From assembly GCA_947302675.1 (NCBI GenBank), contig CAMYWI010000035.1, forward strand, positions 1 through 8,936: a DNA stretch of 8,936 nucleotides, read 5' to 3'. The DNA is from an uncultured Selenomonadales bacterium. Its GTDB lineage: Bacteria > Bacillota_C > Negativicutes > Selenomonadales > Selenomonadaceae. A program made the translations under genes and the position numbers. Position 1 is the stretch's first letter; each line of letters opens with the position of its first letter. This document shows positions 2,016-8,936 of the stretch, in pieces. The notes beneath the pieces were generated by a model, which did not search any database, had not been told where the DNA came from, and saw only the letters and a list, made by a program, of their open reading frames with translations.

Positions 2016-4346
2016 TTAATTACGTATCGTTTTGTTGAAGGTCTCGACGCGCAGATTTTTCCCGTCGGTTTTGAACTTAATCAAGCCGTCGCGGTCAGTG
2101 CGATAAATTTTAGTCGGGAGATTTTCGAGACGCTCAAGGACTTCTGCGCGGGGATGACCAAAAGTATTTCCGTAACCGACGCAGATAACCGCGCACTTCG
2201 GCTTGACGGCTTGCAGAAATTCTTCGCTCGAACTCGTCTTGCTCCCGTGATGAGCAACTTTTAAAACCGTGCTTGAAACGTCAATGCCCTCGCGCAAAAT
2301 CTGCGCCTCAATCTCTTTGACCAAATCGCCCGTGATTAAAAAACTCACGCCACCATAACGGATGCGGTAGACGTTGGAAATCTCGTTGCCCGTCCCGTCG
2401 CTCGGCGCAAATAAAATCTCGACTTCCACGCCGTCAACGTTGTAATTTTCTCCGGCGTGACCTTGTTTAAGCGGCGGCAAATTTTCTTCAGCAATGCCGA
2501 ACGTCGCCGCATATTCCGATTTACTCTCGCCCGCAGTGATAACTTCACCGACGGGCAATTTTTTTATCACCGCGCCCGCGCCGCCCGCGTGGTCTTCGTG
2601 AACGTGCGTCAAGAAAATTTTATCGACCTCGCGAATGTTTTCGTGCTTGAGATAGGGAACGACGACGCGCCCGCCCACGTCAAAAGCTTTCTCGCGAACG
2701 CCGCCCGTATCGAAAATCAAGCAACGCTTATGCGGCGTAATCACAACCGCGCAATCGCCCTGCCCGACGTCAACAAAGCTGACTTCAACATCGCCCGCCT
2801 TGAAAAAATTCGGCGCGAGCAAAAAAATTATCATCAGCAAAATTATCGGGCGTCGGAAAATCAGCGCGGCGTAGTAAAAAACTCCCGCCAATATTCCGAG
2901 CGTCGGCACTTGCACAGAACTAAGCGGCAGGTTCGCGAAGATTCGATTCAGCTCCGCGCCCGCCCCGAAGATTAACGCCTCGCCCGTGAAAAATATCTTT
3001 CCCGCCAACGGCACGACCGTGCTAAAAATTCCTCCCAACAGCCCGCCGACGATTACGATTTCCAAAAGCGGCATGACAAAGACATTTGCCAACACCGAAC
3101 TCAGCGAGATTTGATTGAAATACCAGATTATTATCGGCAGGCTCGCCAGTTGCGCGGCGATTGTCATTGACGCCGGCTCCACAAAAAATTTCGGCACGCG
3201 CTCAAAATTTTTCTTCAAGCCCTCCGATAAATACATCAAGCCCGCCGTCGCCGAAAAGCTCAGTTGAAAGCTTATGTCGAACAAAAGCAGCGGCTGATTC
3301 AAAAGCATTGCAAGCGCGGTTATCGTCAAGAGTCGTGCGCCCTCCGCCTCCGCGTCGAGAGTTTTGGCGAAGAAAATTAAAATGCCCATCGTCGCCGAGC
3401 GCAGGACTTGCGGCAAAAGCCCGCTCAATATCGCGTACGTGCCGATTACAAAAAAGCCGATTGCGAATGTCAATCTGCGCGGGAGTTTTAAAAGTGTGCA
3501 AAGCCACGCCGTCGCCATTGCCAACATGCTCATGTGCGAGCCGCTGACCGATAAGATATGCACAATGCCCGTCGTCACGAAATCTTCTACGAGTTCGGGA
3601 TTAAGTCCTGCGTAGCCGCCGAAAAGCATTGCGAAAATCGCCGCCGCATCTTCGCGCGACATGACGCTTGCCATTGACTCGCGATAGTGTTCACGAATCG
3701 CCGCGACGAGTCTCAAAAACTTTGTCCAAAGTCCGCCGTCAACTTGCTCAATCGAAATGCCCTGCTTGCCCGCCGAGAGCCGCGCAGTAATTCCCGTTGC
3801 CTTCATGCGCGTCACGGTGTCGATTTGTCCGGGGTTGTTGTAGTTGGACAAAAATTTCAAGTTGCCGCCGGCAGAAATTTTATCGCCGATACGCGCCGTC
3901 GGAAGTTCCTCGCCCGCTCGCGGGTAGTAAGTCAGAATCAAGCCGCCGCAAATTTTTTCAGTCGCGCCACGAGTTTTAATTGACTCCGCGTCGACGACAA
4001 AGCGCACTTGCGTTAAGTCGTTCGGCAAAGTTTTTATCTGCGGCTCCTCGCGAATCTCGCCTGTGATTTGAACGTTATCGCCCGCGAACTTGGAAATGTC
4101 GTTTGGCGGGAGCGTGTCGACTGCAAAAAATCTCAGCCCGCCGATTGTAAAGAAGATTATCGGGAAGATTATTCGCGCCGTCAGATTTTTCCGCCGCCAC
4201 GTCAACACGATTGCGCCGATTGTCAACGCCGCGCAGGTCGTGATTAAAAATCTCGGCGAACGATTGAAATTTTCAACAAAAAGAACGCCCGCCGCCATTG
4301 AGGCAAGCAGAACGTTCAGAAATGTATTCGAGACTTTAATCTTCAT
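2016..4346 (-). CDS. comEC: ComEC/Rec2 DNA internalisation protein with C-terminal metallo-beta-lactamase domain
   Basis: Inner-membrane channel that passes single-stranded DNA into the cytoplasm during natural transformation. The 776 residues are full family length. In order: membrane segments near 8-25, 33-50 and 57-75; a soluble DUF4131/OB-like part (about 85-200); the polytopic Competence domain (about 220-510) with the signature HILSVSGSHM at 263-272 and PQVLRSATMG at 312-321; a metallo-beta-lactamase domain (about 520-765) with DVGQGD (526-531), FDTGG (545-549), the metal motif HVHEDH (581-586), ITGD (671-674) and AHHGS (698-702). All metal-binding positions look intact, so a nuclease role is plausible. 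It begins 4 bases after the cbiK stop. I see no Shine-Dalgarno before its ATG, so translation probably depends on coupling to cbiK. comEA and other competence genes are not in the window. Confidence 0.95.
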   Translation of the reverse strand: MKIKVSNTFLNVLLASMAAGVLFVENFNRSPRFLITTCAALTIGAIVLTWRRKNLTARIIFPIIFFTIGGLRFFAVDTLPPNDISKFAGDNVQITGEIREEPQIKTLPNDLTQVRFVVDAESIKTRGATEKICGGLILTYYPRAGEELPTARIGDKISAGGNLKFLSNYNNPGQIDTVTRMKATGITARLSAGKQGISIEQVDGGLWTKFLRLVAAIREHYRESMASVMSREDAAAIFAMLFGGYAGLNPELVEDFVTTGIVHILSVSGSHMSMLAMATAWLCTLLKLPRRLTFAIGFFVIGTYAILSGLLPQVLRSATMGILIFFAKTLDAEAEGARLLTITALAMLLNQPLLLFDISFQLSFSATAGLMYLSEGLKKNFERVPKFFVEPASMTIAAQLASLPIIIWYFNQISLSSVLANVFVMPLLEIVIVGGLLGGIFSTVVPLAGKIFFTGEALIFGAGAELNRIFANLPLSSVQVPTLGILAGVFYYAALIFRRPIILLMIIFLLAPNFFKAGDVEVSFVDVGQGDCAVVITPHKRCLIFDTGGVREKAFDVGGRVVVPYLKHENIREVDKIFLTHVHEDHAGGAGAVIKKLPVGEVITAGESKSEYAATFGIAEENLPPLKQGHAGENYNVDGVEVEILFAPSDGTGNEISNVYRIRYGGVSFLITGDLVKEIEAQILREGIDVSSTVLKVAHHGSKTSSSEEFLQAVKPKCAVICVGYGNTFGHPRAEVLERLENLPTKIYRTDRDGLIKFKTDGKNLRVETFNKTIRN

Positions 4347-4350
4347 GAAT

Positions 4351-5331
4351 TTATTTAATCAGCGCGTCCCAAGCTTCGTTCGCACGTTCGACGTAAAGCT
4401 CGCGGATTTTTTTATTCTCGCCAAGCCCTTGCAAGCGCGTCTCGACCTTAAAGCCCATTTTCTCCAAGATAACTTTGTGCGAGTCTTCCTCGTCGCCCGC
4501 CATGTCGTTATTGGCGTGGTCGCCCGCAACCAGCATGAACGGCATCAAAATTATCTTCTCGACCTTGTGCATTTTGAGCTTGCCCGCCCAATCCTCAAGG
4601 CGCGGCCAACCCTCGACTGTGTAAATGTGCACGTCGTTGCGTTTCATTTGCCGCAGTTTGTTTTGCATGACCGAATAATAAGCATTAGACGGGTCGGGCG
4701 TGCCGTGCGCCATTAAAAGAATCGCCGTGCCCTTCTTGTACGCGGGCAAGTGCAACGACTGCATGACCTGCATAACGTCATCGGGTTGTTCTTCTTGACC
4801 TTGCCAATACATCAGCGGCGTCGCCAGCGACATTTTTTTGAACTGCGTCTTGTACTCGTGGAAAAGTGCCACGTCGTACTTGTACTCCATGCCGGGAATC
4901 ACGTCGAGCGACACGAGCGCAATTCGCGTGTAACCTTCGCGCTTGAGTTGGTCAAGCGTTTGTTCGGGCGTCATATAATCGCACTTGCCCTCGTTCTCGA
5001 CAATGTGCTTGATAACGATATGGCTTGTAAACGCCGTGACGACTTTTGCGTTGGGGTGCGCGGCTTGAATAGCGTTGGCGGTCGCGTCGATAGCTTTGGC
5101 GCGTTGGTCTTTAAAGGTCGTGCCGAAACTCAAAACGACGATAGCATCCTTGTCCGTGTAGCTTTGCAAGTTCGGGTTGTCGTACTTGAGGACGCCGATT
5201 TGCGTTGCCATTTGCAGAGCGGCGGGCGGGTTAGCTACCTCGTCATTGAGCGTGTAGGCGGCTTCGGCGTGCGCGAAGAATAAACTCGAACACGCCGCAC
5301 TTATCGCCAATAACTTTTTCCAGGACTTCAT
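4351..5331 (-). CDS. cbiK: Sirohydrochlorin cobaltochelatase CbiK, predicted exported form
   Basis: Class II chelatase that inserts Co2+ into sirohydrochlorin in the anaerobic cobalamin pathway. Family hallmarks: SFGTTFKDQR (68-77), PGMEYKYD (146-153), LLMAHGT with the presumed catalytic His209, VEGWP (239-243), and MLVAGDHANNDMAGDEEDS with the second metal-binding His272. The N-terminus MKSWKK is followed by a hydrophobic stretch and AHAEAA, a typical Sec signal peptide with cleavage expected near residue 24-25, so the mature enzyme should be periplasmic. This matches the known periplasmic CbiK of Desulfovibrio vulgaris, for which a role in metal or haem trafficking rather than B12 synthesis has been discussed. 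The Shine-Dalgarno GAGGAGG (5339-5345) sits 7 bases before the ATG. No cobalamin riboswitch fits in the short leader. It is 4 bases from comEC and likely co-transcribed with it. Confidence 0.94.
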   Translation of the reverse strand: MKSWKKLLAISAACSSLFFAHAEAAYTLNDEVANPPAALQMATQIGVLKYDNPNLQSYTDKDAIVVLSFGTTFKDQRAKAIDATANAIQAAHPNAKVVTAFTSHIVIKHIVENEGKCDYMTPEQTLDQLKREGYTRIALVSLDVIPGMEYKYDVALFHEYKTQFKKMSLATPLMYWQGQEEQPDDVMQVMQSLHLPAYKKGTAILLMAHGTPDPSNAYYSVMQNKLRQMKRNDVHIYTVEGWPRLEDWAGKLKMHKVEKIILMPFMLVAGDHANNDMAGDEEDSHKVILEKMGFKVETRLQGLGENKKIRELYVERANEAWDALIK

Positions 5332-5361: not shown

Positions 5362-5391
5362 CTCATACATTTCTTTGCGGAGGTCAGTCAA
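5362..5391 (-). promoter_or_regulatory. Candidate promoter for cbiK-comEC
   Basis: On the minus strand, TTGACT (5386-5391, 5 of 6 to the -35 consensus) is separated by 18 bases from TATGAG (5362-5367, 4 of 6 to the -10). The start of transcription would fall near 5355 and leave the cbiK Shine-Dalgarno intact. The -10 match is modest, and transcription from the large upstream gene could also reach cbiK. Confidence 0.3.
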
Positions 5392-5394
5392 TGC

Positions 5395-5451
5395 TCAGAT
5401 ATGAATTCCGAGTCGATTGGCGTCAAAAATATTGACGTAACCTTTTTTCTA
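5395..5451 (-). other. TAG stop with 17-codon in-frame, family-like continuation
   Basis: The large Rossmann/radical SAM/glycosyltransferase gene ends ..EVLPLL at TAG (5449-5451). The same frame then reads KKGYVNIFDANRLGIHI before a TGA at 5395-5397. A G-[FY]-x-x-[IL] pattern like this is how such Rossmann modules normally finish. The N-terminal module of the same protein aligns to it with no gap across the stop: V at the start of both, L at the fourth position, G at the ninth, then F/Y, and L/I at the thirteenth. I infer that this was, or still is by readthrough, coding sequence. Confidence 0.6.
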
Positions 5452-7947
5452 CAAGAGCGGTAAAACTTCCTGCTTATTTTTATCATTCATCGCCAAAATT
5501 ATTCCGGTCTCGTCGGGCGCGGCGGCGAGCGCGATTAAATCTGTCACGTCGTGTTCTTCGCCAGAAATTATCATGCGCTGATTGTAATTGCCGCCCAAGT
5601 TGCTTGTCAAAAAGCTGTAGCGTGTGCAGTTCATTTTGCTGAGCAACTCGCCAACTTCCACGCCGAAATTCCCCGTGCCATAGATAAAAATATTTTCGCG
5701 GGCTTTGTAGAAAGTTTTCAAGTCGTTAAGAAAGTCAGCATAAATTTTGCGGCAGTCGCGTTTGGCGTCGTCAAAGGGTTGCGTGAGCGCGTCGAATAAA
5801 AATTTCTTTTCGGGTGACAAGGTGACAAGCTCCAAAATCTCCGATTTGTTTTCCGTCAAAGTGTTCAAGTAATATTCGACGTCGCCGGCTTTGACTTCAA
5901 AGTTATCTTGCGTCAAAAGGCGGAAAAGTCGACTTAACGAAACATTGAGTAATTGTTGAGTGGCAATAAATTTTCTGTCTTTATCCTCGCCGCGAATTTC
6001 ATATATCTTCACAGCAGACTTTATTAAGTCGTAGGGGTGGTCGAACCCGTTATTGCTCTGCGCGGACAAACTCAAAGAATTTATTCTGTAATTATAGCCT
6101 CTGTACGGTATGATTCCAACTTTCCGCACCCGATTAAATAGACGCCAATTACCAAGAATGTCTTCACCCATGTGCAACGTTTCGTCGAACTTAAAGTCAT
6201 TAAGGAGAGAACAACGATACATTTTCGCCCAAAAATTGAATCTGTATACGCCGAACAAAATTGCCAGTGCCGCCTTTGAATCCAAAATTTCATAGTCGTT
6301 GCTTTTGGGGAACATCACTCTTTTTTGACCGTGTGGATCAATTACAAAGCCGTTGCACATGCAAATATCGACTTCCGAGTTGACGTCCATGAACTCGATA
6401 AAGCGTTCAAAGGTCTGCGGCTCCAGATAATCATCAGCGTCAACAAACGATAAGAATTCCCCCCCGCTTAGCGAGCTGATAAGCTCAAGAGCTACGTTGC
6501 GGGCGGCGGAAGGTCCTCTATTGTCTTGGCTAATGAGAGTTATTCGGTCGTCGCGTCGAGCGTATTCTTCGCATATTGATAACGAGTCATCGATTGAACC
6601 GTCATTGACGAGAAATAACCCGAAGTCCTTAAACGTCTGATTCAAAATAGAGTCGAGGCATTGGCGCAGATATTTTTCCACGTTGTACACAGGCACGACG
6701 ACACTAAGCTTGTGCGGGCGGTTGTCGGTCTGAAAATACTTTATGTACTTGAGCGGCTTGCTGGTCTGTTCATGCGGCGGGATTTTATCTTCGTCGCGTA
6801 TGTCAAGCGGAGTCGGTCTGCCCGTGCACCTGTCGCACGAATCAAAGAACGGGCGGCTGAATAATTTCCTTACCTTTTGCCGCAACGATTCAAGGTCGGG
6901 CGTCGCAGTCAAGTCGACAAAATCATTTTCCACAGCGGGAATAGCCTTCAAGTTCATTGCGTTGGAGATAAACGGGCAGGGATAGAGCTTGCCATTTAAC
7001 AACGTCGCCAAATCCCTCGCGCAACACTTTCTAAAAACCTCCGCTAATTCCTCGCGCGTGCGATTGTGCTTGACGAACGACGAACAGTGCGTCCAATGCG
7101 GAATGGCTTTAACTTCGCTGGGAATTTCATACGCCGCCAATTTCTTTTTGAGCGGCTCCAATTTCCGCGACAGCTCGTCATAGTCGCTTATCGAAAGCCA
7201 GGCATTCGTCGCCTTTAAAACTTCGCATTGGCTATCGCTCGGCAAAAGCGTCCCGTTGGTGTAAATGCTTATCCGCTTGATATTTTCCTTGCTGGCGATG
7301 TATTGAAGAATCTCGTCCCAGTTCGGGTGAACGAAAGGCTCGCCGCCGATTATGCGTATCTCGTAAATCTCGTCGAATACCGCGCAGGTCAAATCCAACT
7401 CGCGCTTTAAATCTTCCACAGAAAAATTTTTCGGAGCCGCGTAGTATTGCATGAGATTTGAACACTCGCGGCAACGCAGAGAGCAACGCTCCGTTATCAC
7501 GAAGTCCAGCGAATTCAGCGTCAACAGCTTTTTGTCGAGGAAACGTTCAAAGTAAAATTGCATTGCCTCGAACTTTTGAAACTCCATGAACGACAACAGC
7601 GCGGAAGTTTTTTCGTTGAGCAAATCGTAAGCGGGTAGCCAACTGAAACCGCCGCTCTCCTCCAACTGCTTTACTGCCTCGTCCATGTTGTGGATTGCCA
7701 AAATAAAAACGACTTCGCCGCGATTGAGCGTCGAGAAATTCATACGCGCGACAGGAATTCCTTCCACAGAGTAAGGCTGAAGTGCTCCGTTGTCGTGAAA
7801 CGCCGCGACGGGAATTTTTTCTTGACGCAAAATTTTCAAGACGCCCTTGCCGGCAATGCCCGCGCCAAAGATTATGACGGTCTTGCCGCCGAGCAAATCT
7901 TTTAGCGCGACACCTTTCGCGGACAGCCGCAGATTTTTTCCTTGCAT
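5449..7947 (-). CDS. Four-module fusion: Rossmann / radical SAM / family 2 glycosyltransferase / Rossmann
   Basis: Cytoplasmic multidomain protein of 832 residues; function and substrate unknown. Module 1 (about 22-112) is a nucleotide-binding Rossmann fold like the PglD N-terminus, with IIFGAGIAGKG at 25-35. Module 2 (about 144-380) is a radical SAM domain with the C-x3-C-x2-C cluster motif CSLRCREC (155-162), GGEP (201-204), and later cysteines CC (308-309), C324 and CDRC (371-374) that could bind an auxiliary SPASM/twitch-like cluster. Module 3 (about 414-640) is a GT-A glycosyltransferase with SVVVPVYN (415-422), NDGS (448-451), DADD (503-506) and GED (594-596). Module 4 (about 750-832) is a second Rossmann unit with IYGTGNFG (755-762), cut by a TAG. 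The start at 7947 is chosen because GGGAGG lies 5 bases upstream; ATG at 7965 would add 6 residues but has no ribosome binding site. Divergent from dnaN; possibly co-transcribed with cbiK and comEC. Surface glycan modification is a guess. Confidence 0.9.
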   Translation of the reverse strand: MQGKNLRLSAKGVALKDLLGGKTVIIFGAGIAGKGVLKILRQEKIPVAAFHDNGALQPYSVEGIPVARMNFSTLNRGEVVFILAIHNMDEAVKQLEESGGFSWLPAYDLLNEKTSALLSFMEFQKFEAMQFYFERFLDKKLLTLNSLDFVITERCSLRCRECSNLMQYYAAPKNFSVEDLKRELDLTCAVFDEIYEIRIIGGEPFVHPNWDEILQYIASKENIKRISIYTNGTLLPSDSQCEVLKATNAWLSISDYDELSRKLEPLKKKLAAYEIPSEVKAIPHWTHCSSFVKHNRTREELAEVFRKCCARDLATLLNGKLYPCPFISNAMNLKAIPAVENDFVDLTATPDLESLRQKVRKLFSRPFFDSCDRCTGRPTPLDIRDEDKIPPHEQTSKPLKYIKYFQTDNRPHKLSVVVPVYNVEKYLRQCLDSILNQTFKDFGLFLVNDGSIDDSLSICEEYARRDDRITLISQDNRGPSAARNVALELISSLSGGEFLSFVDADDYLEPQTFERFIEFMDVNSEVDICMCNGFVIDPHGQKRVMFPKSNDYEILDSKAALAILFGVYRFNFWAKMYRCSLLNDFKFDETLHMGEDILGNWRLFNRVRKVGIIPYRGYNYRINSLSLSAQSNNGFDHPYDLIKSAVKIYEIRGEDKDRKFIATQQLLNVSLSRLFRLLTQDNFEVKAGDVEYYLNTLTENKSEILELVTLSPEKKFLFDALTQPFDDAKRDCRKIYADFLNDLKTFYKARENIFIYGTGNFGVEVGELLSKMNCTRYSFLTSNLGGNYNQRMIISGEEHDVTDLIALAAAPDETGIILAMNDKNKQEVLPLL

Positions 7948-7952
7948 GACAA

Positions 7953-7958
7953 CCTCCC
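7953..7958 (-). promoter_or_regulatory. Ribosome binding site deciding the start of the fusion gene
   Basis: GGGAGG on the minus strand, 5 bases before the ATG at 7947. It lies inside the reading frame that opens at 7965, where the bases upstream of that ATG are A/T-rich with no Shine-Dalgarno, so the shorter start is preferred. Confidence 0.65.
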
Positions 7959-7978
7959 GATTCATAAAAATTTTCGTC

Positions 7979-8007
7979 AGTCTATCACAGCGAGTTTCTT
8001 AACACAA
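7979..8007 (-). promoter_or_regulatory. Weak candidate promoter for the fusion gene (extended -10)
   Basis: On the minus strand TAGACT (7979-7984, 4 of 6) is preceded by TG plus one base, an extended -10, with a poor -35 TTGTGT (8002-8007) at 17 bases. A start near 7972 would leave a 25-base leader, which fits translation from 7947 better than from 7965. A perfect TTGACA on the same strand (8014-8019) has no acceptable -10 at the right distance. Confidence 0.25.
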
Positions 8008-8012
8008 GCTAA

Positions 8013-8041
8013 TTGTCAAAGTCGGTCAAATGTTATACAAT
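8013..8041 (+). promoter_or_regulatory. Sigma-A type promoter of dnaN
   Basis: TTGTCA (8013-8018, 5 of 6 to TTGACA) and TACAAT (8036-8041, 5 of 6 to TATAAT) are separated by exactly 17 bases. An overlapping TG-n-TATACA could act as an extended -10. Transcription would begin near 8048, giving a leader of about 27 bases that includes the Shine-Dalgarno at 8059-8065. Confidence 0.65.
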
Positions 8042-8074: not shown

Positions 8075-8936
8075 ATGAAATTTTCTTGTTATAAAAGCGA
8101 TTTGACGGAGGCATTGCAATTCGTGATAAGGGCGGTAGCGGTCAAGCCAATGACGCCGATTTTGGCAGGAATTTATCTCAAGGCGGACGGCTCGATGCTC
8201 GAACTGCAAGCTAACAACTTTTCAACGGGCATGATCACGCGGATACCTGTGAACACGGAAGATCCTGGCGAAGTCGTCGTCAGCGGCAAACGTTTTCAAG
8301 AGTTCGTTAAGAACATGCCCGACGACACGATTACTTTTTCCCTCGAAGACAACACCTTGTCGATTGAGTCGGGCGGCGCGAGCGTCGAGCTTTTGACAAT
8401 GAACGCGGGCGACTTCCCGAAGGTCAAGACGCCCGAAACTGACCGCTCCTTTAAAATTCGCACGACGGTTTTGCGCGACTTGATTAAGCGGACGGTCTTC
8501 GCGGTTGGCAAAGATGACACGCGCCCGATTTTTTCCGGCTGTTGTTTCGAGATTGCTGGCGATAAAATTTCCGTCATCGCCACGAATACTCATCGCCTTG
8601 CGCTCGCCAAAGAACAACTCAGCGAGAGTTATGAGGATTGCAGTTTCGTCGTACCGGCGGAGGCTCTGCGCGGGATTATGCTCCGCATTGACCCCAACGA
8701 CGTTGAAAATTACGTGACGATAAATTATTCCGTGCGCTACTTGACGTTCAGTTTCGACAACGTTTTTGTGAACTCGCGCTTGATTGACGGCATGTTCCCG
8801 CCCTACGAGAAGGTTATCCCGTCTTCGAGCAGTACCAATGTTAAGGTCGACACGGCGGCTTTCAGACGTGCGGTTGAATTTGTCGCGCTCATGTCGAAGG
8901 AGACCGAATACAACACCGTTAAGTTTACGTTCAGCG
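8075..8936 (+). CDS. dnaN: DNA polymerase III subunit beta (sliding clamp), 3' end outside the window
   Basis: Ring-shaped dimeric clamp that tethers DNA polymerase III to DNA. 287 residues are visible of the usual 365-375, so about 80 are missing beyond the right edge; the frame is open to the last base. Three repeated clamp domains are expected: about 1-120, 121-248, and the third from about 249, only partly present. Family signatures are KDDTRPIFSGCCFEI (147-160, including both ends), IATNTHRLALAK (168-179; usually ATDTHR, here Asn for Asp) and NSRLIDGMFPPYEKVIP (233-249). AAGGAGG (8059-8065) lies 9 bases before the ATG. The TTG at 8071 is out of frame. dnaA is not immediately upstream; instead the gene is divergent from the radical SAM/glycosyltransferase fusion and has its own promoter. 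Confidence 0.97.
   Translation, partial: MKFSCYKSDLTEALQFVIRAVAVKPMTPILAGIYLKADGSMLELQANNFSTGMITRIPVNTEDPGEVVVSGKRFQEFVKNMPDDTITFSLEDNTLSIESGGASVELLTMNAGDFPKVKTPETDRSFKIRTTVLRDLIKRTVFAVGKDDTRPIFSGCCFEIAGDKISVIATNTHRLALAKEQLSESYEDCSFVVPAEALRGIMLRIDPNDVENYVTINYSVRYLTFSFDNVFVNSRLIDGMFPPYEKVIPSSSSTNVKVDTAAFRRAVEFVALMSKETEYNTVKFTFS

Follow-up and report, generated by a model that had tools for sequence, protein, structure and literature searches.

This locus raises the question of what might be done by a single gene that joins a radical SAM enzyme to a glycosyltransferase, carries a Rossmann module at either end and stands by itself between dnaN and cbiK-comEC. The window, by which we mean the whole stretch of DNA analysed, is 8,936 nucleotides long and comes from an uncultured Selenomonadales bacterium. 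An earlier note on it had described the product as one polypeptide of four modules, and domain profile and fold searches confirm this architecture. One minus-strand open reading frame of 832 codons plus TAG (5449..7947; the features described within it lie on the same strand) encodes, in order, an N-terminal Rossmann module, a SpeY-like twitch radical SAM module, a family 2 GT-A glycosyltransferase and a C-terminal Rossmann module. The N-terminal Rossmann module (residues 15-117; 7597..7905) is PglD_N-like, and the C-terminal one (residues 751-832; 5452..5697) is shortened by the stop; both are of the PglD_N type (PF17836), the first by profile and the second by fold, and the proposal of two modules of the same type at the two ends thus stands.

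The radical SAM module (residues 132-402; 6742..7554) matches the twitch-enzyme fold in fold comparison and scores 48.3 bits against PF04055 (cut-off 29.5), with the CX3CX2C cluster motif of the superfamily in place as CSLRCREC (residues 155-162; 7462..7485), as had been noticed before. Cys 155, 159 and 162 are nearly invariant in a 72-row alignment, as are Cys 288, 308, 309, 324, 371 and 374, which may hold an auxiliary 4Fe-4S cluster of the twitch/SPASM kind. The SPASM family is absent from the Pfam matches of the fused protein, and the best 25 of 68 matches to named NCBIfam equivalogs (MoaA, AlbA, ScmE and others) all fall under the curated cut-offs; viperin and MoaA were set aside as identities for this half, the likeness being one of superfamily only. 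The glycosyltransferase with its helices (residues 411-702; 5842..6717) scores 102.9 bits against PF00535 (cut-off 23.3) and contains both NDGS and the metal/donor motif DADD (6430..6441). The GT-A core recognised earlier was thus recovered, and by profile and DxD motif this half is a predicted member of glycosyltransferase family 2.

The position of the gene was likewise confirmed, and comparison with relatives indicates how it came to stand there. It is flanked by cbiK (4351..5331, minus strand) and by dnaN (8075..8936, plus strand), which runs off the window end. The nearest genome by aspS is G076 (96%). Of 20 near genomes, cbiK was found in 18, and dnaN lies beside it, divergently oriented, in 16 of the 18 loci examined; of the two remaining, one has its contig end right next to cbiK, and in the other no dnaN is seen. 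The spacing between the two genes is 139-203 bp in nine measured loci and, from coordinates, up to about 380 bp in others. Homology of the window to the empty site ends near 5383-5390 and restarts near 8013, which gives an approximate insertion of 5391..8012, little more than the single fused gene. Judged against these empty sites, the fused gene was inserted between cbiK and dnaN. Comparison of the two 50-base junction stretches showed no direct or inverted repeat of at least 6 bases, and we therefore name no mechanism of insertion. Carriage as mobile element or phage cargo was considered and rejected, with no phage match and no relative in viral contigs. The radical SAM half was matched in 5 of 72,556 plasmid records, none above 32% identity; three Brachyspira plasmids (NC_012226.1, NZ_CP019601.1, NZ_CP046931.1) carry a distant relative of it (24-25%). 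On the far side of cbiK, the window's aspS (61-1851) adjoins comEC (2016-4346); comEC, cbiK and dnaN were not found in 14 other aspS regions, several of which are short on that side.

The suggestion that this architecture is not common held up. Full-length fused proteins in the databases number three (P0002, the window's own allele, P0003 and P0004), with a few more that are split or partial, and among 189 related genomes the full architecture occurs only in G001, a rumen Selenomonadaceae metagenome-assembled genome, where the locus L001 is frame-split (E 1e-40). Each half is found by itself in the same 189 genomes of the family: a stand-alone GT2-Rossmann protein in G168, G122 and G175, and a stand-alone Rossmann-radical SAM protein in G173, with typical sizes of about 440 and 400 aa, respectively. 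The radical SAM half is matched in 30 of the 189 genomes (E 1e-12) and gives 480 database matches when searched alone; most of the best 120, the fused group included, are about 400 aa long. In a tree of 55 radical SAM halves the 10 fused rows cluster within stand-alone proteins, on a branch whose support of 93/97 is short of the starred level. P0044 (350 aa, scored as non-fused) lies inside the fused group, so that the fused label requires two changes on this tree. By these comparisons, the fused gene unites two proteins that are each more common, one Rossmann-radical SAM and the other GT2-Rossmann. As full-length fused proteins reach down to 58-59% identity (P0004), the fusion has persisted for some time.

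The Rossmann ends have a wider distribution. Rossmann-like N-terminal stretches, judged by eye and in one case matched to Pfam PglD_N, occur in clusters of G122, G137, G173 and G003 on radical SAM, TylF, FkbM, GT9-like and MptE-like proteins, the last of which we take to be Maf-type; the GT2 proteins of G168, G122 and G175 have such a stretch at the C-terminal end, and methyltransferases in the glycan-type clusters examined also carry them. Such stretches, N- or C-terminal and mostly recognised by eye, were noted on many glycan-cluster enzymes (L187-L190 and L017-L019), and the Rossmann ends are best seen as a shared cluster add-on, possibly a docking domain. With both halves occurring alone in relatives and the Rossmann ends a common add-on, the earlier idea of a self-contained enzyme that may build or alter a sugar by radical chemistry and then transfer it claims more than the evidence supports.

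A short homopolymer in the glycosyltransferase half bears more directly on how the gene may be used. Directly before DADD lies a tract of seven G (6459..6465; C7 on the plus strand), the only G/C run of at least six in the 8936 bases of the window, in which GGG is the rarest glycine codon of the five genes (19 of 177). Ten alleles span this tract. Seven of them (P0005, P0006, P0007, P0008, P0009, P0045 and L001) end no more than 10 residues from it, and three (P0002, P0003 and P0004) read through, among them both alleles seen in the window's own species (P0002 and P0003). This count leaves aside P0010, which ends about 35 residues earlier, P0044, which ends well before the tract, and P0038-P0042, which are C-halves only. 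In L001, which was read as DNA, the tract is also G7 and is followed by a stop, with the remaining glycosyltransferase and second Rossmann parts open in another frame; over 489 aa L001 and P0008 have 99.4% identity, yet they leave the tract in different frames. The C-half proteins P0038 and P0040 start at the tract, and the contigs of the C-halves P0040 and P0041 are equal in length to those of the N-halves P0009 and P0010. Relatives other than L001 were read as proteins, from which their tract lengths were deduced; of the seven alleles that end here, six may therefore do so because their contig stops at the tract.

Two marks of SSR phase-variable genes are found here: a G tract of at least seven inside an ORF, in the window and, at the DNA level, in L001, and a tract frame that differs between near-identical copies, L001 and P0008. 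In the Campylobacter poly-G survey (PMC6321876), from which the length mark is taken, G7 is the shortest length counted and switching is reported from a length of eight upwards. The window copy keeps its frame through the tract and has a defect of another kind, a TAG stop (5449..5451) 18 codons short of the end common to intact relatives; the intact copies without it are P0002-P0004. Because this stop removes the last 18 residues, the C-terminal Rossmann module of the window copy is probably impaired.

In related genomes the number of poly-G tracts reaches 88 per genome, and some of the tracts lie in glycan-type genes. G001 (2.1 Mb) has 50 tracts of 8-12 (L080-L116), where a random order of bases would give about 2.6, and they are distributed among many genes of different kinds. 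Their length is G9-G10 in 42 of the 50, with A before the tract in 49, T after it in 50 and TA after it in 48. A total of 147 kb of G001, selected because it contains these tracts, has 45 G4 and 2 G5 runs and none of G6 or G7; this gap, together with the fixed flanks, suggests that the tracts do not arise by lengthening of shorter runs. A count of the pattern A-G9-(0-2 bases)-TA over the 189 genomes gave 44 in G001, 21 in G092, 20 in G088 and 15 in G062, against 1 in G088 and 0 in the other three for the reversed-pattern control. G069 has 88 tracts of at least nine, none with this flank type. Among 57 ORF pieces of at least 60 aa beside the G001 tracts, the overlapping Pfam tallies (best 25 of 48 families) include GT2, FkbM and Methyltransf_11 (4 each), Radical_SAM (3), GT1 (2), DegT and Epimerase_2 (1 each). 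An open frame of at least 60 aa lies on both sides of 19 of the 50 tracts. Some tracts, at L112, L170 and L173, lie between TTGACA and TATAAT; these may, given that position, switch promoters rather than reading frames. The fusion draws attention to a large repertoire of poly-G tracts in the Selenomonadaceae, a family for which no report of phase variation was found in the literature among the matches listed (titles and abstract openings).

We take a phase-variation switch to be the best reading of the G tract, with slipped-strand changes best explaining both the endings and the frame change seen across alleles. The same features could be produced by programmed ribosomal frameshifting or transcriptional slippage, which would set a ratio between the long product and a short one consisting of the Rossmann-radical SAM half and part of the glycosyltransferase. 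Seven consecutive G also make a slippery sequence, the position of the tract is common to the alleles, and the second half of L001 has stayed open in another frame rather than decaying. Recoding would, however, call for one frame relation, and there is no single one: P0002-P0004 are open straight through, and the near-identical L001 and P0008 differ in frame. The many G001 genes with tracts of 8-12 also resemble a phase-variation repertoire, and we regard recoding as very unlikely. A little less improbable, although still unlikely, is that the broken alleles reflect homopolymer assembly errors, the ends of contigs or the neutral decay of a gene that the cell can do without. The early stop of the window copy, the break of P0010 at another point and the small size of the contigs (the largest of P0002-P0010 are only 2.8-5.4 kb) would fit this account, but one ending point recurs in alleles 62-88% identical to the query, the C-halves stay conserved and, over the whole L001 contig, the other homopolymers listed (A8, T8 and A7) sit in ORFs that are still open. 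Plain decay may nevertheless account for part of the breakage, given the separate stop of the window copy and the break of P0010 about 35 residues before the tract.

Variation of a second kind affects the glycosyltransferase half downstream of the tract. P0002 and P0003 are 99% identical outside residues 521-680 (5908..6387) and only 58% identical within them; of the 76 positions at which they differ, 67 (11 of them gaps) fall in this hypervariable segment and 9 in the other 690, a clustering for which Fisher's p of 1e-44 is descriptive only. The segment is a mosaic in other pairs as well. P0041 and P0042 are 92% identical over their last 100 residues and 30% (12/40) in 641-680, while P0040 and L001 have the opposite pattern, with 95% (38/40) in 601-640 and 69% over the last 100. 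In the window gene, GC content is 40.5% in codons 541-680 and 50.1% in codons 1-400. By what is established for the fold, residues 521-680 form the acceptor side of the GT-A enzyme. The pattern suggests a segment diversified by recombination, which, given this position, probably alters the acceptor.

The G tract, mosaic segment, early stop and empty site say more about the use of this gene than its list of domains. Building on the four modules, the tract endings and frame change, the mosaic segment and the cbiK-dnaN insertion, all read from sequence or model, we consider it probable that the gene was acquired laterally and encodes a phase-variable enzyme that decorates surface glycans, fused from a Rossmann-radical SAM and a GT2-Rossmann protein. 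Its radical SAM half, by analogy with SpeY, would oxidise or epimerise a sugar hydroxyl, and the glycosyltransferase half would transfer the sugar, with the Rossmann ends docking the enzyme to a shared nucleotide-sugar, carrier or partner. The fused enzyme would thereby decorate a surface glycan. Slipped-strand changes in the G tract would turn the glycosyltransferase half off while the Rossmann-radical SAM half was still translated, and recombination would replace the acceptor-binding segment so that a different glycan was decorated.

The weakest step of this mechanism is that both halves act on the same sugar, to which we give about even odds. The rival view, in which each half serves a step unrelated to that of the other and their fusion does no more than co-express or co-locate them, has in our judgement somewhat less than an even chance. 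It accords with the occurrence of both halves alone, in clusters with other glycan-type genes, and with the Rossmann-like add-ons common there; against it stands the retention of the fusion for some time, down to 58-59% identity in P0004. A bolder version of the decoration enzyme is a one-gene glycan diversifier that moves laterally and both makes and attaches a radical-modified sugar, with its transfer half switched by the G tract, its radical half left on and its acceptor segment swapped. We think this version doubtful; if it were true, a single locus would let a population display one surface glycan in many forms. The modules and the principle of switching are all known already, and no report of the fusion, of the mosaic glycosyltransferase segment or of poly-G switching in Selenomonadaceae was found in the literature among the matches listed. 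Coupling of radical SAM chemistry and glycosyl transfer in one chain is seen here in one small group of database proteins and, among 189 related genomes, in a single one. With the fusion it can be tested directly whether the sugar that a glycosyltransferase uses comes from a radical SAM enzyme.

Known systems resemble the fused protein part by part. The substrate of SpeY is a spectinomycin intermediate, an aminocyclitol, and we know of no radical SAM part in the GT2 glycosyltransferases CgT, TarS, TarP or RmlT. SpeY, a twitch radical SAM dehydrogenase (PDB 7wzv, 7wzx and 7x0b), has a fold like that of the radical SAM half at 19% identity; its aligned chain is 300 residues long and hence lacks a Rossmann or glycosyltransferase part. 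CgT (5hea), TarS, TarP and RmlT are 18-28% identical to the glycosyltransferase half in these rows. Both ends match PglD_N-type Rossmann domains (WeeI, the PglB acetyltransferase domain, VioB and 3nkl), but in the fused protein they flank radical SAM and glycosyltransferase modules, with no acetyltransferase domain. The closest parallel for the tract, as described in the PhasomeIt survey (PMC6321876), lies with the poly-G phase-variable genes of Campylobacter. These belong to a different phylum, and the tract in the window is only G7 and those of G001 have the fixed flank A-Gn-T, unlike the Campylobacter system; the Campylobacter tracts are nevertheless mostly G9-G10, as in G001 (42/50), and there too the G tract is intragenic and frame breaks truncate the product.
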